From IMG/VR virus record IMGVR_UViG_3300030098_001332, positions 1 to 34,815 of that record: a DNA stretch of 34,815 nt. One strand, given 5' to 3'. Below, piece by piece: positions 7,090 to 22,620 of the stretch. The notes beneath the pieces were generated by a model, which saw nothing but the letters and a program-made list of their open reading frames with translations, was not told where the DNA came from and ran no database searches. Made by a program: the position numbers and the translations under genes. The first letter of the stretch is position 1; every line of letters starts with the position of its first letter. The stretch is from a virus.

Positions 7090-7753
7090 TATACAAGTTA
7101 TCAAAAATCCTGTTTACATCTAATGTGTAGTCTAAATCAGACTTTGAATAATGTATATGCTGAGAAGGTCTAAAATCTGGTGCACCCTCGCCTGTTTGAA
7201 ACCAAGCGGGGTGCGTAACTCTAACTCTGTTGTTCGGTAATGCTACAACATTACCTGTCCATTCACCTGCATCTAGCAAATACATAACATGACTTTGCTT
7301 GTGTTGTGCAGGGTCGTCTGCTATCTCACTATCTGTATAATCAACAGTAAACAGATACTTAGCTGGATACATCTCACTACCTATCTTTGCCAACCAAGGG
7401 CAAGGTGTAGCTCTATCTAAAGTGTAAACAGCGTGGGTATGAGATGAACAATCCCAAGGCTGGGCATCATGTGTGTCCATCGGCTCCGGCCACTCCTCAA
7501 CAGGTATGTCTGCCATCAAGCCAGTGATAGGCATCCTCGCCCACATAGCCCCACCATGAACATTCGGACTTTTTGTTCCATCGGTTTCCGAACCAGTAAA
7601 AATTACTTGAAAACTCAAACATCTGTTCGGCATAGTCGTTACGGCTATTGCCATTGCGTGTAAGAATTCTCCGTGATATTTGTCGTGATTACAGGTGTAC
7701 TCCCGCCTCACCCAACACTTGAAGTGAGGTATATTACTCTGTAAATACGGCAT
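7079..7753 (-). CDS. Conserved marine-phage protein of unknown function next to terL
   Basis: This 224-residue protein is rich in Trp, His, Cys and aromatic residues. It has many H/C residues in the first half (for example CNHDKYHGEF near 21-30, HGGAMWARMP near 66-75, DCSSHTHAVYTLD near 100-112), which could bind metal. I recognise the general look of a protein often seen beside terL in marine phages, but I cannot name a domain. The start ATG overlaps the previous stop (TAATG), and the end overlaps terL by 11 bases, so it is translationally coupled in the packaging operon. A packaging or virion role is inferred only from position. Confidence 0.65.
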   Translation of the reverse strand: MPYLQSNIPHFKCWVRREYTCNHDKYHGEFLHAMAIAVTTMPNRCLSFQVIFTGSETDGTKSPNVHGGAMWARMPITGLMADIPVEEWPEPMDTHDAQPWDCSSHTHAVYTLDRATPCPWLAKIGSEMYPAKYLFTVDYTDSEIADDPAQHKQSHVMYLLDAGEWTGNVVALPNNRVRVTHPAWFQTGEGAPDFRPSQHIHYSKSDLDYTLDVNRIFDNLYNDE

Positions 7754-8007
7754 TAGTTTTTAACTAGTTTATATCCCTTGCTTTTAGCAGCTGATCTGAT
7801 CTTGGCTAATGTCATTCCACCAACAGCACCACCTTTTTTCATGCCTTTGGTCTTAACCTTACCACCCATTTTCATGCCTTTAGCCATCATCTTTCTAGGT
7901 GAAATCTTACCACCCATCTTCATGCCTTTGGCTTTGACCTTGCCACCTTTTTTCATTCCTTTGGATTTTACTTTACCACCCATTTTATAACCCTTTTTCT
8001 TCATCAT
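7753..8007 (-). CDS. Small Lys/Gly/Met-repeat basic protein
   Basis: The 84-residue product is almost entirely a repeat. Five imperfect units of the form K-G-(Y/M)-K-(M/K)-G-G-(K/A)-(V/I) are separated by short basic linkers, and the tail is a short non-repetitive sequence. It is extremely basic, so binding to DNA or to an acidic protein is likely, for example as a packaged condensing or internal protein; this is inference. A GTG at 8061 would give 102 residues and overlap the previous stop, but the ATG at 8007 has an AGGAG about 9 bases upstream and is preferred. The same GG-V signature occurs in neighbouring virion genes (see findings). The underlying DNA is a tandem repeat of roughly 33-48 bases. 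Confidence 0.6.
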   Translation of the reverse strand: MMKKKGYKMGGKVKSKGMKKGGKVKAKGMKMGGKISPRKMMAKGMKMGGKVKTKGMKKGGAVGGMTLAKIRSAAKSKGYKLVKN

Positions 8008-8057
8008 TTTATTTGCTCCTTTACTGACTTGTTGAGGGATTTTTGATCTCGATATTG

Positions 8058-9290
8058 TCACTGTCTAACAGCACTGAGAAAATTGTCAACTGCTGTATCA
8101 AGTTTGTTAACAGAACCACCTTGATTCATTTGTGTTGCAGGAACACCCTGTAACTTAAATAAGTTTCTTAACAATTCTGGTGATATACCTGGTGGCAACA
8201 ATGGTGATGTTGCAGGTAAACTTGGCAACGCAGGTATAGTAAAATCTGGAACTCTTGTTGATTCTACAACAGGGCTAGTCGGCTCTGTAGGTGTAATTAC
8301 ATCAGCTATCGGTGCTGTTGTCTCTGTAGGATCAACTGTCTCTACAGCTGGTGGCAACATACTTTGTATCATAGCTCTCATGCGTTGCTCTTCAGCTAGT
8401 TTTCTTTCTGCTCTTTCTTGGTCTTTCAACCTGTCTCTTGCAATGCTTGATTGTGTACTTTCGTCATCTAATGTTGCTTGTGTTGCTTTGTATAACTCAT
8501 ATGGATCGCTATAACCCATAATACCCATACCTATTTTATTAACAAAAGGTGCAAACATACTCTTTTGCGATTTCATAAAACCTTCATCAAAATATTCTTC
8601 TGGTGGTGCAGGATCATCTGCTGATCTATAGTAACCAGATACGTCTTTTGATATGGGATTAACATCTCCAGACATGAAATCAGAAAAATTAGCTGAATCA
8701 GGATTAAAAGTGGCATATGGACTTTGAACAGAACCTAAATTATCCTGTGGATCCATTTGATAATTTAAATCAGTTGTTTGACCCATTGTTCTGTCTCTTT
8801 GAATTATATTATCAAACGGAACATAAGTAGATTCTTCCATAGGGATAGTTATATCACCTCTACGCTCAGGCATCATACCAACATTTACAGGTGCTGATCT
8901 CTCATCTAATATATCTATGACTTTATCTATTGAATCTTTACGATTCCTGTCACCTTTTAAATCCTTGTTTGTAAAATTACTACCAACTGTAACACCACCA
9001 TTTCTCATGTACTGTGGCTCAAAGACATCGACAGCACCACCCATGTTCATCATCATAGGCTGTTGCATCGGTTGTTGCATAGGCATCTGAGGTGTTGATA
9101 TGTTCGGTAGAAGCTGATCCATAGTTTTCTTCTGGATCGCATCTTTATATCCCTCAAGATAGTTTTTTAACGCATTTCTTTTCTCAGGAGATACATTCAT
9201 GTTCATAGATGGGGATGATTGCCCCTGTGGAGATGGTTTAGGTTGTGGTTGAGGCTGTCCACCCATACCTGTAGCCATGTAATTTGTCAT
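8058..9290 (-). CDS. Pro/Gln/Met-rich virion-associated protein with MGG motifs
   Basis: This protein of 410 residues has a low-complexity N-terminus (GQPQPQPKPSPQGQSS near 10-25). A short helical segment with KNYLEGYKDAIQKK follows, then Met/Gln-rich repeats and two GG motifs (MNMGGAVDVFEP and YMRNGGVTVG near 80-105). The middle is disordered-looking and acidic, with a Thr/Pro-rich linker (near 315-375). The extreme C-terminus repeats the motif as MNQGGSVNKLD before a final helix. No enzyme motif is seen. AAGAGGG lies about 8 bases before the ATG. It is the first gene of the packaging-portal operon after a start-proximal hairpin. A scaffold, chaperone or internal virion protein role is possible but not shown. 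Confidence 0.55.
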   Translation of the reverse strand: MTNYMATGMGGQPQPQPKPSPQGQSSPSMNMNVSPEKRNALKNYLEGYKDAIQKKTMDQLLPNISTPQMPMQQPMQQPMMMNMGGAVDVFEPQYMRNGGVTVGSNFTNKDLKGDRNRKDSIDKVIDILDERSAPVNVGMMPERRGDITIPMEESTYVPFDNIIQRDRTMGQTTDLNYQMDPQDNLGSVQSPYATFNPDSANFSDFMSGDVNPISKDVSGYYRSADDPAPPEEYFDEGFMKSQKSMFAPFVNKIGMGIMGYSDPYELYKATQATLDDESTQSSIARDRLKDQERAERKLAEEQRMRAMIQSMLPPAVETVDPTETTAPIADVITPTEPTSPVVESTRVPDFTIPALPSLPATSPLLPPGISPELLRNLFKLQGVPATQMNQGGSVNKLDTAVDNFLSAVRQ

Positions 9291-11708: not shown

Positions 11709-12182
11709 TCAAATTTTTACCCGATGAAAAGATCTGACCGAATTGTTTCTAGTCACATTATCAAATTGATTAGACTTGTAGTGCGACCAACCCAAAGCTT
11801 CATACAGATGATTCGTTTTAAGACCAAAGTCTTTGTACCCATCCAAGATGCTATTGAAGTAATGTGTGCTAGGGGAAGATACATCTTTCTGATTCATAGT
11901 GTATGTCATCATACCATTGACAGTGATCTTTCTGTACAGATGTGGAAAGCCTTCATAGATGTCTAATCTATCTTCACAATCTTTAGTAATCTCCCAAATA
12001 CCAACGGGTAGGAATACATCGTTACTCCTCGTTGGTTCAATGTCTGCCACACCTCTGAATACCAACCTCCAATTGGGAATATACTGTGCACCCAACTGTC
12101 TAGCATTTGGACATCTTTGTGCCATTTGGGTCAAATTAAGATTTGACCCATAAGCAAAATATAGTTTAGTTTTTTGTTTCAT
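11709..12182 (-). CDS. Gamma-glutamylcyclotransferase-like protein (GGCT/AIG2 fold)
   Basis: This 157-residue protein has the family signature FAYGSNLN at 9-16 (substrate-carboxylate loop) and DIYEGFPHLYRK at 74-85, where Glu77 matches the usual catalytic acid. GGCT enzymes release 5-oxoproline from gamma-glutamyl amines or peptides. Phage and bacterial members often sit beside GS-like amidoligases, as here (amidoligase at 11432-10266), suggesting that one makes and the other trims or recycles an isopeptide. The length is close to a single GGCT domain, and the last 30 residues are basic and Asn/Ser-rich. It overlaps the upstream 46-residue gene by 17 bases. AAAGTGAGG lies about 10 bases before the ATG. 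Confidence 0.85.
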   Translation of the reverse strand: MKQKTKLYFAYGSNLNLTQMAQRCPNARQLGAQYIPNWRLVFRGVADIEPTRSNDVFLPVGIWEITKDCEDRLDIYEGFPHLYRKITVNGMMTYTMNQKDVSSPSTHYFNSILDGYKDFGLKTNHLYEALGWSHYKSNQFDNVTRNNSVRSFHRVKI

Positions 12183-13338: not shown

Positions 13339-13654
13339 AGTGTAAATGTTCCTCCCTCGTAATCATCAACTCCGAACAATTTATCGTGTTGGACGCTAAA
13401 AAAAATATAGGGGGAGGTGGTGGGTTACTTACCACCCCCCTATACCCCCTATAGGGGGTAAGTCTCGGTAAGTTGGTAAGTAGCAATAAAATCAATGACT
13501 TAGCATCCATAATTAACTTACCATAATAGCCTGTAACCACCGTAACCACTTCCCGATTAATCCAATAAAAACAAATACTTAACAAGTTACCGACCAATTT
13601 ACTTACCACCGTAACTTCGTAACCCGTAACCTGTTGTTCACGTTTCGTGCTCAT
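13331..13654 (-). CDS. Uncertain 107-codon frame running through a palindromic region
   Basis: From an ATG at 13654 the frame stays open for 107 codons and fits the tight tiling of the operon (overlap of 17 bases with the gene before, 8 with the gene after). However, the product looks repeat-driven (VTVVS, VTVVTGYY, TPYRGYRGVV, five prolines in a row) because it follows short DNA repeats and a G/C palindrome. It may be a real but divergent gene, or the frame may be open by chance over a cis-acting region. Confidence 0.3.
   Translation of the reverse strand: MSTKREQQVTGYEVTVVSKLVGNLLSICFYWINREVVTVVTGYYGKLIMDAKSLILLLLTNLPRLTPYRGYRGVVSNPPPPPIFFLASNTINCSELMITREEHLHYE
13406..13634. repeat. Palindromes and GTAAC repeats upstream of terS, candidate packaging or origin site
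   Basis: Bases 13406-13444 form a hairpin with TATA/GGGG/GGTGG arms pairing to CCACC/CCCC/TATA around an 11-base loop. TACCCCCTATAGGGGGTA (13443-13460) is a perfect 18-bp palindrome. From about 13535 to 13634 the heptamer-like CCGTAAC/GTAACC recurs at least six times with TTACCACC variants. This combination just ahead of terS is what a pac or cos region or an iteron origin could look like; which of these is undecided. Confidence 0.5.
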
Positions 13655-13829
13655 TTTCACCCATTTCATAACTACAATCAACGCATAAATATGTCTTATC
13701 TTTATACGTGATAAACCAATCATCCTCTTTTAATTTATTACACTCTGGACAACGCAGTTTTTGTGCAAACAAAAGCTCTTTTTGTAGCTTCTTGTTCTTC
13801 CCGATAGGGAATAATATTACTTCACCCAT
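13638..13829 (-). CDS. Four-cysteine zinc-ribbon-like small protein (63 aa)
   Basis: The product has CPEC at 27-30 and CVDC at 49-52, a typical zinc-knuckle pair, with a Lys-rich helix before it and an acidic tail. The chosen ATG lies 1 base after the stop of the SleB-type gene (TAGTATG) with GGGAG about 7 bases upstream. A longer frame upstream of this ATG only shadows the SleB-type gene in another frame. The function is unknown; DNA, RNA or protein binding is possible. Confidence 0.6.
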   Translation of the reverse strand: MGEVILFPIGKNKKLQKELLFAQKLRCPECNKLKEDDWFITYKDKTYLCVDCSYEMGENEHET

Positions 13830-13830
13830 A

Positions 13831-14265
13831 CTAGTGCTCCCATCTATAAAAACAATGTGTATCAATACACACTGTTTGTGTAAAAGCATTAGCCCAATAA
13901 GGGCTAACATAGTCAGCATGATAATGTGTCGAACCATCGGTAACGTCAATACTAATTTGTTCATTTAGAACAACCCAAGCTATTGCCTCAGCCCAATCAT
14001 AAGCTTTGACATCATCAATTACTTCTGGTTTGCCATCACAATAAAAACTAAACGCACACTTATCCCGAACAATTTTTCGACTATCCCAAGAATATCGTAA
14101 GCCGTCAGTAACAACTTCGCACACTGTATTCGGAAATCTTTGATCATTAACCCGGTTATTTATAACTTGAGCCACTGCCAGCTGTGCCACTATAGGCTCA
14201 GACCTAGCCTCAAAGTATATAGCATAGCTCATGCAAACCAAAGCTGTTGCTGTCTCCAACATCAT
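13831..14265 (-). CDS. Cell-wall hydrolase, SleB type (Hydrolase_2)
   Basis: This 144-residue protein matches the SleB/CwlJ hydrolase domain, which cuts peptidoglycan. It has YFEARSEPIVAQLAVAQVIN at 17-36 (catalytic Glu in the FEAR block), NRV, FPNTVCEVV near 44-52, AFSFYCDGKP near 71-80, and GSTHYHADYVSPYWA near 111-125. The N-terminus (METATALVCMSYAIY) is hydrophobic but belongs to the domain rather than to a clear signal peptide. It overlaps the preceding gene by 4 bases (ATGA). The genome also has a T4-type lysozyme 12 kb away, so this one may serve in virion entry or as a second lysis factor. Confidence 0.8.
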   Translation of the reverse strand: MMLETATALVCMSYAIYFEARSEPIVAQLAVAQVINNRVNDQRFPNTVCEVVTDGLRYSWDSRKIVRDKCAFSFYCDGKPEVIDDVKAYDWAEAIAWVVLNEQISIDVTDGSTHYHADYVSPYWANAFTQTVCIDTHCFYRWEH

Positions 14266-14885: not shown

Positions 14886-15031
14886 ACTTCTGTCTCCTCT
14901 TCTCCCATAAAATAAATTTCTGTTTCATATTCGTTACCGTCCTCATCAACAAATTTAATATACTTCGGTAACTTCACATCTTTATCAACTAGAATATCTT
15001 CCAATCCATATCTAATTTTAGTCTCTTTCAT
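14882..15031 (-). CDS. Small acidic protein (49 aa), unknown
   Basis: The frame starts at ATG with AGAGGTG five bases upstream. The product is MKETKIRYGLEDILV, then KYIKFVDEDGNEYETEIYFM and an acidic end. It overlaps both neighbours by a few bases. The family is unknown. Confidence 0.55.
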   Translation of the reverse strand: MKETKIRYGLEDILVDKDVKLPKYIKFVDEDGNEYETEIYFMGEEETEV

Positions 15032-15140
15032 TTTCACCTCTACTTTCACAATCTACACAAATTAAATTACCATTCTCATCTTCGTGAGAAACCCAATCGG
15101 GTTTAACTTCTTGTTCACACTCTACACATTGATAACCCAT
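15018..15140 (-). CDS. Four-cysteine microprotein (40 aa)
   Basis: The product has CVEC at 5-8 and CVDC at 33-36, a zinc-ribbon pattern in only 40 residues, with WVSHEDENGNL between. The start overlaps the preceding stop (TAATG) and has GAGGTG five bases upstream. It resembles the 63-residue zinc protein at 13829 in its second knuckle (CVDC). The function is unknown. Confidence 0.6.
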   Translation of the reverse strand: MGYQCVECEQEVKPDWVSHEDENGNLICVDCESRGENERD

Positions 15141-15349
15141 TACTGCACCTCATCAATATTAAATGTCCAATAAATTTCTGAGTCTGTACCAAACTTTCTT
15201 GGACGTGGTTTCGCTTTTGAGTATGGTTCTTCCACTAAGAAAGAAGAACCAACTTCATATTCATCCCATTCTTTGTCAACGATTGATCCATACCAATCGT
15301 CAACAATTTCATTTCTAACATTAGGAACTTTTCTAGCTTTAACTGACAT
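15140..15349 (-). CDS. Hypothetical protein (69 aa)
   Basis: The product begins MSVKARKVPNVRNEIVDDWY and has a Trp-rich, acidic and Lys-rich body with no motif I recognise. A TTG at 15358 could extend it by three residues; the ATG at 15349 is preferred. It overlaps the metalloprotease gene by 11 bases. Confidence 0.5.
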   Translation of the reverse strand: MSVKARKVPNVRNEIVDDWYGSIVDKEWDEYEVGSSFLVEEPYSKAKPRPRKFGTDSEIYWTFNIDEVQ

Positions 15350-15773
15350 TTGCAACACCCACAGTTAAACTTCTATAGTTCTCAGCATAAGCACGACACT
15401 CGTTAAAGACTTCATCCCAATGACCTTGTGGCATACCGTATGACATCAATGCACGTTTCATTACGTTACTAGCAGTATCTGTCCATACAATCGCAACAGA
15501 CATAGCATACTTCCAAGCACCAATCTCTTTCTCCATAAGATCATTTTCTCTGCCTTGTGCAGGTCCAATCAAATGACCAATCTCGTGTAATGCCGAAACA
15601 TAAAAACCCGTGTTCTTTGTTGGTCTAATGCAAATCAACTTGTGTCTCGGGTTTGCATAATAACGTGGGTCTGTATCATTCAATGATTGATACTTAACAG
15701 TGATGTCATGCTCTGCACATAACTCTTGTACGTGCAAAGCCATATCAATTCTTTTAACTAATGGTCTAGTCAT
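15339..15773 (-). CDS. HEIGH zinc metalloprotease-like protein (M78/IrrE-like)
   Basis: This 144-residue protein has SALHEIGHLIG at 60-70, the HExxH zinc-protease signature. It is followed by an acidic helix (RENDLMEKEIGAWKYAMSV near 75-93) where the third zinc ligand of ImmA/IrrE-like (M78) peptidases usually lies. In that family, phage and plasmid members cleave repressors to switch gene programs. It lies in the small-gene operon, overlapping the next gene. No repressor gene is directly adjacent; the RHH and XRE genes are each several kb away. The substrate is unknown. Confidence 0.7.
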   Translation of the reverse strand: MTRPLVKRIDMALHVQELCAEHDITVKYQSLNDTDPRYYANPRHKLICIRPTKNTGFYVSALHEIGHLIGPAQGRENDLMEKEIGAWKYAMSVAIVWTDTASNVMKRALMSYGMPQGHWDEVFNECRAYAENYRSLTVGVANVS

Positions 15774-16003
15774 TAGGCAACCCTCTTAACTACAATTTTG
15801 TTATCGTAACTTGTGACATAAACTTTTTTGCCAACATCAAGATTACTCACGTTAACTAAATCTTTATTATACAAACCATACACTTGTGTATGTAGTACAT
15901 CTCCTGACACATTATTTTCAAACTTACCTTTGTCATTCATTGTCTTGTCTACATAATGTAAGAAAAATTTTCTGTCTGATGGGATATTAATATTTTTATA
16001 CAT
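15773..16003 (-). CDS. Hypothetical protein (76 aa), first gene of the small-gene operon
   Basis: The product has a beta-rich look (HTQVYGLYNKDLVNVSNLDV, then KKVYVTSYDNKIVVKRV) like a small SH3-like or OB-like barrel, but no family is recognised. It is preceded by the shared leader GAAAGCGAGGTG and the promoter with spacer operator at 16039-16067. Confidence 0.55.
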   Translation of the reverse strand: MYKNINIPSDRKFFLHYVDKTMNDKGKFENNVSGDVLHTQVYGLYNKDLVNVSNLDVGKKVYVTSYDNKIVVKRVA

Positions 16004-16086: not shown

Positions 16087-16752
16087 TTAAATTAATATCA
16101 TTTGTGTTGAAACTTTGTTGTCTATCCTATAGTTCAGCGTTTCTGTTTTTGGGTAAGAATGTATAGGATAATTTAAATTTTGATTAAATATTCTCTTTTG
16201 TCTTTTGTCTCCTAAGAAATATATATACCTATGTTTTCTTGGTCTATCGACTACCTCAAACTTATCTTTGTCATTCATTCTTTCCTGTAAAGTATACTTC
16301 TCACATATTGTCTTTGAGTGCATATTAGAATTTTTTATTCGCCACTCTGTTCTTTTGTCTGACAATCCTGTGTATATAAAATTAGTAGCTTGATAAATAT
16401 ATCCTGTATGGTTCATACTTGTATCTGCGTAAGATACAACTATCTGGGGCTTGGGTAATAACTTTAAACTATTACCAACAAGATAGGACGCATTGTTTTT
16501 ATCATTATCAATTAAACATAATCTATTGAGCTCGATAACTTTATCTCTAAATTGTTCGCCACAAACTCCAATACAAAGAGATGAGCTCGGTGGTGAGCCA
16601 TAAGTTATTATACCAATTAATTCTTTATGTAAGTATAACCCGAACGAATAAGATATTGACGGTATTCTCTTGGCATAATGTAATCTTTTTAGCCACTCGT
16701 ATGTTTCCTCTTTTTTTATTTCCAAAACTTTTTTATTTTTAAAGTCATTCAT
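16087..16752 (-). CDS. Mom-like DNA-modification protein (GNAT fold)
   Basis: This 221-residue protein resembles the phage Mu Mom family, which adds a carbamoylmethyl group to adenine in DNA and protects it from restriction. Seen here: HYAKRIPSISYSFGLY (about 26-41), GIITYGSPPSS (47-57), VIELNRLCLI (72-81), NASYLVGNSLKLLP (87-100), VVSYADTSMNHTGYIYQATN (104-123) and FIYTGLSDKR. This succession (YGxPPS, ELNRL, SYADxxxNHxGxIYQAxNF) is the usual Mom signature. It overlaps by 8 bases the small four-cysteine gene just upstream, the same order as com-mom in Mu. The bases before its ATG are nearly all A with no good Shine-Dalgarno, so it may depend on coupling or an activator. Confidence 0.85.
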   Translation of the reverse strand: MNDFKNKKVLEIKKEETYEWLKRLHYAKRIPSISYSFGLYLHKELIGIITYGSPPSSSLCIGVCGEQFRDKVIELNRLCLIDNDKNNASYLVGNSLKLLPKPQIVVSYADTSMNHTGYIYQATNFIYTGLSDKRTEWRIKNSNMHSKTICEKYTLQERMNDKDKFEVVDRPRKHRYIYFLGDKRQKRIFNQNLNYPIHSYPKTETLNYRIDNKVSTQMILI

Positions 16753-16924
16753 TTTTATTTCTTTTTTTTATTATTGCTATTTCTCTTTTTGTTAACTCCT
16801 TCAGCTGCCTGTTACAGGATCCACAACTGACATCTGTTCGGGTTTTGTAGATCCGACCTCTGGTTTGTCTGCCACACCAATCACAATCAATATGAGTTTC
16901 ATAGTATCTTATGTATTCCATCAT
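16745..16924 (-). CDS. Com-like four-cysteine regulatory protein (59 aa)
   Basis: The product is short and basic, with CDWC at 14-17 and CGSC at 34-37. The 16 residues between the two knuckles equal the spacing I recall for Mu Com (Cys 6, 9, 26, 29), the zinc protein that opens the mom ribosome-binding site. It starts within the stop of the primase-helicase gene (ATGA overlap) and ends 8 bases inside the Mom-like gene. It could also be a generic zinc ribbon with an unrelated role, but size, spacing and position agree with Com. No sequence search has been made. Confidence 0.65.
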   Translation of the reverse strand: MMEYIRYYETHIDCDWCGRQTRGRIYKTRTDVSCGSCNRQLKELTKREIAIIKKRNKNE

Positions 16925-19083
16925 ACATTATCCGTTGCTGTTGTTGCTTCATATTCGCCTCGACTCATCAGACCGTTGACAGTGCCAAGCCATTTACGAC
17001 CACCCGCCGTGCTAAAACTAAACTTATCGATTCTACCTTCAGTAATTAATTCCCGAACAATTCCGTCCAGTACACGTTGAGACAGATTTGCCAGTGCATC
17101 TGGTGCATCGGCATCAGTCATACGATTAGACAACGAATCAGCACCCCCCTGTTGACACAGGGCTCTACCTTCACGTTCACAACGATTAATCCATTCGTAC
17201 AATGCACTCTTTCTTAAATCTCGATTAGTTCCAGAGTTAAGTTGAACCATATCCTCAGTCCGATCTACCAACAGTCCAGTATTTAAATCCCGAACAAATT
17301 TGCGTATCTGGCGTTTGGCTGGTCCGTTCGACTTTACAACTGCTCCGTCAAAACACCTGTTTCTCTGGTATTCTATGTTAAGTTCCTTACACTGGCGTTT
17401 TGCTGTATTCTCATCCAACTGCCACAATGCAAACGCACAACGCACACCATCAACAATCGCTGACGTACCCCTGATAAGATTTCTAGCTTGTTCTGGTGTT
17501 GATATAACTGTGTCGTCCTTAACCTTTGTCATATGATGACACATCATAACCGAAGCTCCTGTTTCCGAACAAATCTTAGACATCAGTCCTGTCAGGGCTG
17601 CACCAGCTGATGGATCAGAATTCACATCTGCGTGAACAAACGAAGCTAACGGATCGAAGATAATAAGCTTCAGGTTATTAATCTGTAATATTTGTTCGTA
17701 TATACGCTCGAACTCTGCCGAAGTTGTTAGCTCACCGTGTACGCTTTGTAGTACAGGAAACACGCCACCGACATTAGGTAATGATACAACCCGAAGCTCA
17801 TTTTCATACTCGAATCTTTCATTGTTCGGGTCTAAACGCTCTATACGTCTGTGCATTTCTGCTTCATCGTCCTCTGCTGTGAAGATAACCACGTTACCAA
17901 ACTCGGTTACATTACCACCGAACGAATTACGCATCGGGAAGGCACCAGTAACTTTCATAGCTAAATCCAGTGTAAGCATACCCTTACCTGCGTCACCCGC
18001 AGCTGATAATATAATTGGTACCCCCAAAGGAAACGTGCCGTCTACCAGAAACTTTTGTTCGGGTGCAGGACCAACGAATCTCGATACCAATAAGCTGTCG
18101 TCCAGAAGATTTATGTTCTGACGTGTAAAGTTGCTCGTAGTATTTAAGAACTCATTTATATCGAAGCCTTCACTTATTGCATCTGCGACATCCCATCTCT
18201 CTGGTTTACCTCTTGGTAGAGTAAGCATCTTGACTGACTTAACATTAGCGTTCAGGGCTAACTCCTGAACTAGCTCAGCTAATTTCTTACCAGCGTTGTC
18301 ATTATCAGCCCATAAAATAAGCTCTTTGCCTTGCAATGGAGAAAAATCATACTGTGACGCTGACTTCTTGGTAAGCATACCTGCACCACCCATTGTACAG
18401 GTTGCTGTGTAGCCCAAGTTGTTTAAGGCATCTGCACATTTCTCACCTTCTACCCAGATAACTGTATCCGAAGCCAATATGTTCGGAATATTATACAGGG
18501 GTCTGACATCAGGCATACGTGGATACGGGTGTTCTCCAGTAAATTGCCTAAACTCTTTCTTTGGTTTACCGTGTGTGTCCAACATCGGAGCACCTGATCC
18601 ATCCCGAACAAGATACTTACGAACCGAACAAATCACCTGACCATCGGAATTTTTGTATAAATACTCAGAATCGTATGGTGTTTGCCAGTTAATCTGGACT
18701 TTTACTGGATTCTCGGCAGGCTGTTCCCGAACAAATTTTCGGGTTTCACCTACGTACTCAGAGAACATCTCTTTAATCTCAGGTAATCTAAGACCTCTAC
18801 CTTCCATTAAGATCTTAACTATGCCACCGATTCCAACGCCGCCGTTGAAGTCTTGACCCTTCATAAAGTATGGGCTTCTAGGATTAATATCTATCTTCAG
18901 GGATTTACCAGACTCACCTGAAGTAGACCCGATTGTAAACAGATCACCAGTAACCCTACCCTGTGGAAATGTTTCTCTTAATACATCTATTTGTACCTGT
19001 CTAGGTACCTTCTTGCTAATCTCTTCGACTAACTCACTCGCTGACATACTAGATTTAGTATTGTCAAATGGTAAAACACGCAT
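16921..19083 (-). CDS. TOPRIM primase fused to RepA/DnaB-like helicase ATPase
   Basis: The product is 720 residues and combines priming and unwinding. The N-terminal 200 residues are primase-associated without a visible zinc finger. The TOPRIM domain shows VIWVEGEKCADAL (Glu at 212 and 214) and LILWADNDNAGKK (DND at 260-262). The ATPase begins at 340 with Walker A AAGDAGKGM at 361-369, an acidic EDDEAEMHRRI element near 404-414, Walker B LKLIIFDPLASF (Asp477), and a polar MMCHHMTKVKDD loop near 517. A C-terminal 150-residue tail is charged and may hold a winged helix. It is last in the replication block before com-mom. Several CCCGAAC motif copies lie inside it. Confidence 0.9.
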   Translation of the reverse strand: MRVLPFDNTKSSMSASELVEEISKKVPRQVQIDVLRETFPQGRVTGDLFTIGSTSGESGKSLKIDINPRSPYFMKGQDFNGGVGIGGIVKILMEGRGLRLPEIKEMFSEYVGETRKFVREQPAENPVKVQINWQTPYDSEYLYKNSDGQVICSVRKYLVRDGSGAPMLDTHGKPKKEFRQFTGEHPYPRMPDVRPLYNIPNILASDTVIWVEGEKCADALNNLGYTATCTMGGAGMLTKKSASQYDFSPLQGKELILWADNDNAGKKLAELVQELALNANVKSVKMLTLPRGKPERWDVADAISEGFDINEFLNTTSNFTRQNINLLDDSLLVSRFVGPAPEQKFLVDGTFPLGVPIILSAAGDAGKGMLTLDLAMKVTGAFPMRNSFGGNVTEFGNVVIFTAEDDEAEMHRRIERLDPNNERFEYENELRVVSLPNVGGVFPVLQSVHGELTTSAEFERIYEQILQINNLKLIIFDPLASFVHADVNSDPSAGAALTGLMSKICSETGASVMMCHHMTKVKDDTVISTPEQARNLIRGTSAIVDGVRCAFALWQLDENTAKRQCKELNIEYQRNRCFDGAVVKSNGPAKRQIRKFVRDLNTGLLVDRTEDMVQLNSGTNRDLRKSALYEWINRCEREGRALCQQGGADSLSNRMTDADAPDALANLSQRVLDGIVRELITEGRIDKFSFSTAGGRKWLGTVNGLMSRGEYEATTATDNV

Positions 19084-22124: not shown

Positions 22125-22189
22125 GGGTATAAACATACACGGATATGTCAATAGACCCCGCTGACGGCTCTTATATGAAGCCGTTTTTT
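22125..22189 (+). ncRNA. Candidate phage small RNA, copy 2
   Basis: It begins GGGTATAAACATACACGGA, with ACATA-cacgga-TATGT able to form an inner stem, GGGT...ACCC an outer one, then CTGACGGCTC and the terminator CGGCT-N9-AGCCG followed by six T. Layout and sequence match the element at 14492-14553. On the opposite strand this DNA is the leader upstream of the SF2 helicase gene, which also has a GGGAAGT/ACTTCCC hairpin at about 22035-22062. Confidence 0.55.
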
Positions 22190-22620
22190 GCCAGAACAGC
22201 CTTAACATAACCTAACTTAACGGAACTTATCGCACACCAACATAACATATCGCATCTCACCCCAACTGCCGTAACGCACCCAACTCGAACTAACAAGACC
22301 ACAACTGCCGAAACGCAACTGAACTGAACGCAACTCTCCTCGCCATATCCACAACTGCCTCAACTGATACTAACTGAACCAAGCAAACCCAACCCCAACT
22401 GAACTGCCTTAACAAAACACACCCCACCTCAAATCACCAGAACTCACCACAGCCAACCGTAGCTGGTGCTACCTAAAATTAACGCAACTGCCAAAACTCA
22501 ACAGACCCCAACGTAAAATACCTCGCCCAAACATAACGAAACCCATCTGAACTGCCTTAACATAACCCAACGCTACATATGCCTAACTGACCTGACCCCA
22601 CCTCGACACAGGACAAAAGT
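22190..22620. repeat. Strand-asymmetric non-coding region with AACTGCC repeats
   Basis: For 430 bases the plus strand is mainly A and C, poor in G and T (minus strand G/T-rich). There is no believable gene. AACTGCC recurs at least six times (near 22265, 22305, 22352, 22402, 22490 and 22554), often followed by YTAAC or AAC, with many CAACTGAACTG and CCCCAAC variants between. It lies between the recombination genes and the helicase, a usual place for a phage origin or recombination-initiation site. Confidence 0.5.

Follow-up and report, generated by a model that had tools for sequence, protein, structure and literature searches.

A small zinc-ribbon gene paired with exchangeable DNA-modification genes behind the primase-helicase in a group of marine phages

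Genes at the locus

The window (the whole stretch of viral DNA analysed here, 34,815 nucleotides, record IMGVR_UViG_3300030098_001332) encodes a terminase closest to those of the Pelagibacter phages HTVC027P, HTVC023P and related marine phages (56-62%); the record is 34.8 kb long, and the relatives L040 and L043, which share the slot described below, measure 35.5 kb. The locus includes, on the minus strand: the gene of a primase-helicase (16921..19083 (-), Toprim and AAA_25, 720 aa), used as the anchor of the locus; a small zinc-ribbon gene (16745..16924 (-), 59 aa), overlapping the primase-helicase gene by 4 bp; a gene for a Mom-family DNA-modification enzyme (16087..16752 (-), 221 aa); a small gene, variable among the relatives (15773..16003 (-)); and a peptidase-like gene (15339..15773 (-), MTRPLVKRIDMALHVQEL), where the relatives converge again past the variable slot. 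Elsewhere in the window, about 470 bp of non-coding, C-poor and G/T-rich DNA (22150-22620 (-)), in which the words GTTgGG and GGCAGTT recur loosely, may be a replication origin or serve regulation in another way, and 7753-8061 (-) encodes a low-complexity protein rich in lysine, glycine and methionine, with repeats of about 33 bp.

The zinc-ribbon gene encodes MMEYIRYYETHIDCDWCGRQTRGRIYKTRTDVSCGSCNRQLKELTKREIAIIKKRNKNE, in which C14, C17, C34 and C37 form the C-x2-C-x16-C-x2-C arrangement exactly as an earlier note on this DNA had described it, followed by a basic C-terminal helix (residues 46-57). It is a real, conserved protein gene, because all four cysteines are invariant in an alignment of 49 relatives and dN/dS is low (0.07-0.17 between most relatives, 0.30 in the closest pair). 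The residues invariant in the 49 members are C14, D15, C17, G18, G23, C34 and C37, and the family signature (C-D-x-C-G-x2-T-R-G-R ... C-G-x-C) is present in the protein of the window. The full motif is beyond chance (one occurrence in the six frames of the window, mean of 0.000 in shuffles); the broader class of paired CxxC motifs is common there, with two further small proteins of this kind encoded at 15018-15140 (-) (spacing x19) and 13638-13964 (-) (spacing x18), and small zinc ribbons abound in this phage group.

The structure prediction proposed in the earlier note gave a small zinc ribbon with the basic C-terminal helix (pLDDT 87), and searches of this model against PDB and BFVD returned no significant match, the weak ones being only ribosomal zinc-ribbon proteins and MqsA. 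Profile searches of Pfam, PHROGs and NCBIfam placed the protein in no curated family; the best match of the family, phrog_8736 (annotated as unknown function), was weak and partial (9 of the 49 members, best E=3e-4). The protein belongs to a new zinc-ribbon family of its own, with no curated model. Its relatives were not found among isolated phages; the genome collection contained one Rhodospirillales MAG contig with the gene, placed between TerS-like and TerL-like genes.

The 221-aa enzyme, called Mom-like in the earlier note, matched the Pfam Mom family PF25680 (E=3e-40, 138.5 bits against a cut-off of 27.1, profile positions 4-202 of 202), phrog_1384 (Mom-like, E=1.9e-61) and, by sequence, PDB 8bv8 (Mu Mom, 5.9e-11); the best PDB match of its AlphaFold (AF2) model (pLDDT 82), a GNAT-like fold, was again 8bv8 (E=1e-11, TM 0.65-0.70). 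PDB 8bv8 is the inactive S124A mutant of Mu Mom; the matching serine of the window's enzyme is S89, and S89, R77, D110, Y120 and other residues are invariant in an alignment of 17 Moms, the serine mutated in the inactive Mu crystal thus being conserved. By homology, the gene can be assigned to the Mom family as a genuine member, and the phage very likely modifies adenine; the product expected for the family would be carbamoylmethylated adenine in the virion DNA. Stand-alone phage Moms (Listeria A511, Bacillus Riggi, ICP1) belong to the same enzyme family (34-46% identical to the window's Mom), and 13 sampled isolate phages with Mom, unlike the window, showed no paired-CxxC zinc gene upstream.

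The start region of mom

The zinc gene ends 8 bp inside mom (16745..16752 (-), ATGAATGA). The earlier note had read this overlap as being like that in Mu; the length is correct and the likeness is not, the Mu com/mom overlap measuring 80 bp if counted to the annotated ATG, and 50 bp if counted to the GUG within the stem of the translation-inhibition structure (TIS). Of the 39 pairs of neighbouring genes in the window, 4 have overlaps of 8 bp, the zinc/mom pair included, and the junction is ordinary for this genome, in which short overlaps are the norm.

The A-rich stretch ahead of the mom start (16753..16800 (-)) contains neither a Shine-Dalgarno sequence nor a stable hairpin. The best duplex reached -0.9 kcal/mol, which agrees with the absence of a clear Shine-Dalgarno sequence noticed earlier and places this start among the 8 weakest of the 40 called in the window, several of the other weak ones being possibly mis-called. 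Mu-type translational control, by contrast, did not emerge from the folding of the minus-strand RNA: the region -70..+35 around the start gave -5.9 kcal/mol (z=+0.39) with the start codon unpaired, and hairpins of 16-60 nt pairing the start codon were found neither in the window nor in the near copy L030 nor in L040, the same calculation having recovered the Mu TIS as positive control. The Com motif CC(N)2-3GAG is absent from -150..+60 around the start; a comparison of 16 zinc genes showed no conservation of RNA structure (18 pairs, 0 compensatory), and no synonymous-site constraint was evident at the 3' end of the zinc gene.

The methyltransferase (MTase) partners of the zinc gene in related phages need no activator, since they mostly have ordinary Shine-Dalgarno sequences. 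In genomes such as L043, L033, L034 and L037, the last codons of the zinc gene hold the Shine-Dalgarno sequence of the enzyme, and the two could be exchangeable as a single unit.

The slot behind the primase-helicase in related phages

In near relatives, the zinc gene lies between the same primase-helicase and one of four kinds of DNA-modification enzyme: Mom-A (the window, L040); the distantly related Mom-B (L041; PF25680, 1.2e-16); C5-MTase (L031, L044; PF00145, about 1e-49); or N6/N4-MTase (L033, L036; PF01555). Most zinc-enzyme junctions overlap by a few nucleotides. In L041 (2621-4009), the Mom-B reading frame runs on beyond the enzyme and encodes a further domain at the C-terminus, about 200 aa long (AHPPCRLWGNLSH...GGILEHPSKSKLF).

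A primase-anchored survey (80 contigs, the window and four distant ones) found a modification enzyme directly behind the zinc gene in 26 of 26 contigs that carry it (13 MTase, 8 Mom, 5 C5-MTase). Among contigs without the zinc gene, 45 had no enzyme in the slot (an unrelated gene filled it in 11 zinc-less contigs whose primase is 90% identical over the query fragment), 5 had Mom-B and 3 an MTase directly behind the primase, and a few had a C5-methyltransferase near it; the complete records of the large relatives L284, L288 and L308 contained neither Mom nor a C5- or N6/N4-MTase. Close relatives that lack the zinc gene thus usually lack the enzyme too, and the converse fails, as a Mom or MTase gene can fill the slot alone. 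The pairing of the zinc gene with a DNA-modification gene is not random in this phage group.

Several further arrangements were observed around the primase. The Mom-B genes of L324, L331, L337, L339 and L340 overlap the stop of the primase-helicase gene by 1-4 bp and have no zinc gene ahead of them. A PAPS-reductase-like gene lies between primase and C5-methyltransferase in L310-L314, and similar genes adjoin the zinc gene in L064 and a methyltransferase in L244. A gamma-glutamylcyclotransferase-like gene (AYGSNLN), located at 11709-12182 (-) in the window, is placed directly behind the primase in the zinc-less L280-L290.

The similarity among the zinc proteins did not follow the partner. The zinc protein of L043, whose partner is a C5-MTase, is 83-86% identical to those of the N6/N4-MTase genomes L033, L034 and L037, 75% identical to that of L040 (Mom partner) and 60-69% identical to those of other C5-MTase partners. 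These identities indicate that the zinc gene is not tied to the enzyme type; taken with the enzyme relatives outside the clade described below, they show it following the phage rather than the enzyme.

Readings of the slot and comparison with Com

The reading towards which we lean, tentatively and at somewhat less than even confidence, is that the zinc gene is a resident accessory of a DNA-modification slot, serving whichever enzyme is present; it would be Com-like in position and role, and not in descent. The locus would then be a modification slot ending the replication operon, in which the resident zinc-ribbon gene is followed, through overlapping stop and start codons, by an interchangeable modification enzyme (Mom in the phage of the window), both genes being presumably co-translated by coupling. 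The zinc ribbon with its basic C-terminal helix is a probable nucleic-acid binder, and may act as a generic accessory of the slot, most likely tuning expression of the enzyme present, by a mechanism other than the hairpin melting of Mu; regulation by the zinc protein would be plausible. In favour of this reading, the zinc gene was never found in this group without an enzyme directly behind it, while the type of enzyme changes, and true Com swaps its partners in a similar way. Against it count the few events in which the zinc gene was gained or lost along the primase tree (about 3, with 2 supported independent pairs), the fact that adjoining genes can vanish in one recombination without any functional link, the enzymes that work without the zinc gene, in the slot and outside the clade, the ordinary Shine-Dalgarno sequences of most MTase partners, and the distant zinc relatives, which mostly occur in records without such enzymes. 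A bolder version, which we consider rather unlikely, is that a zinc family unrelated to Com independently became a portable, enzyme-agnostic control cassette: the small gene would carry the translation start region of the enzyme, so that Mom, cytosine and adenine methyltransferases could be exchanged against host defences with expression control unchanged.

Nearly as likely as the accessory or regulator reading is that the zinc ribbon is an ordinary replication or packaging accessory with no role in modification, the slot being a tolerant insertion point and the joint gain and loss arising from adjacency only. The wider zinc family is consistent with this: among 30 records with distant zinc relatives, a Mom gene was found in 1, an N6/N4-MTase in 2 and a C5-MTase in 0, many of the records being fragments in which absences are soft, and many distant members lie between TerS and TerL, others before tail or helicase genes. 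Because the distant members are mostly in records without modification enzymes, a biochemical role of the family specific to modification is unlikely; a specialised role within the clade of the window is possible. In one contig (L080, record G019), Mom is encoded about 2.7 kb away from a distant member of the zinc family, not next to it. The enzymes also occur alone, both in the same slot and outside the clade, where 36 C5-MTase, 63 N6/N4-MTase and 75 Mom-B relatives had no zinc-family gene upstream, nor had the Mom-A of L008 (78% identical to the Mom of the window) and other Mom-A relatives. Travel of the zinc gene together with the enzyme was ruled out on these outside-clade relatives and on the independence of zinc similarity from enzyme type.

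The phylogenetic independence of the pairing is thin, with 2-3 contrasts: on the primase tree, 3 changes of the zinc gene and 11 of the enzyme are required, and in the supported independent pairs zinc gene and enzyme go the same way in about 1.8 of 2 (sign test not significant). The prevalence of short overlaps in the genome also fits a bystander. However, the slot of every zinc-carrying contig holds a modification enzyme and nothing else, of four types, whereas that of the zinc-less sisters is mostly empty or holds other genes; and in L040, where an additional gene is inserted after the primase, the zinc gene remains beside mom though parted from the primase.

An improbable further alternative is that the zinc protein serves the modified state itself, helping the enzyme to reach phage DNA or blocking a modification-dependent (type IV) restriction enzyme provoked by the modification. 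It would account for a zinc protein that stays while the partner chemistry changes (Mom, m5C, m6A/m4C) and is not matched to one enzyme type, and small basic zinc ribbons such as the one modelled are plausible binders of nucleic acid or protein; but the protein has no structural or sequence match to known anti-restriction or adaptor proteins, and its relatives are mostly in phages without such enzymes.

Least probable of all, and largely refuted, is a true Mu-type Com that binds a hairpin near the mom start, melts an inhibitory structure and switches on mom translation, since the same Cys spacing, similar length, mom overlap and weak Shine-Dalgarno sequence are set against the missing in-register homology, the RNA results described above and the absence of mom beside most zinc homologues.

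Com-Mom is a near-singular model for the restraint of toxic DNA modification by a phage. The constant position of the zinc gene ahead of some modification gene in sister phages suggests that a helper or controller of phage DNA protection has evolved separately. If another zinc protein, unrelated to Com, does play a similar role for four kinds of enzyme, in marine phages with a terminase resembling that of pelagiphages, the guarding of a swappable modification slot would be a recurring phage strategy, and the enzyme swap among relatives makes control by the zinc protein directly testable. Should the zinc protein have no part in modification, the locus would remain a record of a slot at which modification genes are actively exchanged, and would add a new zinc-ribbon family of small phage proteins.

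The earlier note had proposed a com-mom type control pair. The genuine Mom and the non-random pairing of a small zinc gene with a modification gene bear this out in part, while homology with Com and control of the Mu type are not supported. Of the two grounds for rejection that the note had named, the first largely applies, as the small protein falls into another zinc-ribbon family and Moms occur without it in the same slot and in L008; the second, a Mom-like protein lacking the catalytic residues, does not apply. Com homology of the zinc protein was found neither by Pfam, PHROGs and NCBIfam nor by hhalign. Against a profile of the Com proteins of Mu, B3, JD024, Chuche, Mcat3 and UMP151, hhalign aligned 15 columns of the zinc family only, the second knuckle falling on the first of Com, out of register (probability 68), and the hmmscan match to PHROG Com (phrog_6417, E=0.017) was likewise out of register. 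Since homology and RNA target were both sought and not found, the zinc protein stands outside the Com family, and the locus is best described as an arrangement that is Com-like in the order of its genes.

The hairpin bound by Com in Mu adjoins the TIS that holds the mom GUG (PMC6483171). The window resembles Com-Mom of Mu (NC_000929, Mup54/Mup55) in that the gene of a small zinc protein (CCCC, spacing x16) lies directly upstream of a Mom-family gene and overlaps it, and in the homology of its Mom with conserved catalytic serine; the x16 spacing of the CCCC module is a generic feature, common to other zinc ribbons too. It differs in the lack of profile homology in the zinc module, in having no start-hiding TIS hairpin and no CC(N)2-3GAG Com target, in a zinc gene that directly follows and overlaps the primase-helicase gene, which Mu com does not, and in a zinc family that mostly occurs without mom. 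True Com also swaps partners, namely Mom in Mu and JD024 and an adenine or other DNA methyltransferase in B3, Chuche, Moraxella Mcat3 and UMP151. A search of a limited paper collection found nothing relevant on pairing of a zinc gene with a modification enzyme outside Mu-like phages. The zinc proteins of B3, UMP151, Chuche and Mcat3 are true Com (C-x2-C..CPRC), unlike that of the window, these phages are of another type with the pair at another genome position, and Com partners are Mom or adenine-type methyltransferases, whereas the zinc gene of the window's group is found with C5-cytosine methyltransferases as well; the Com-methyltransferase pairs and the present locus have in common that one small zinc gene overlaps a DNA-modification gene of exchangeable kind.
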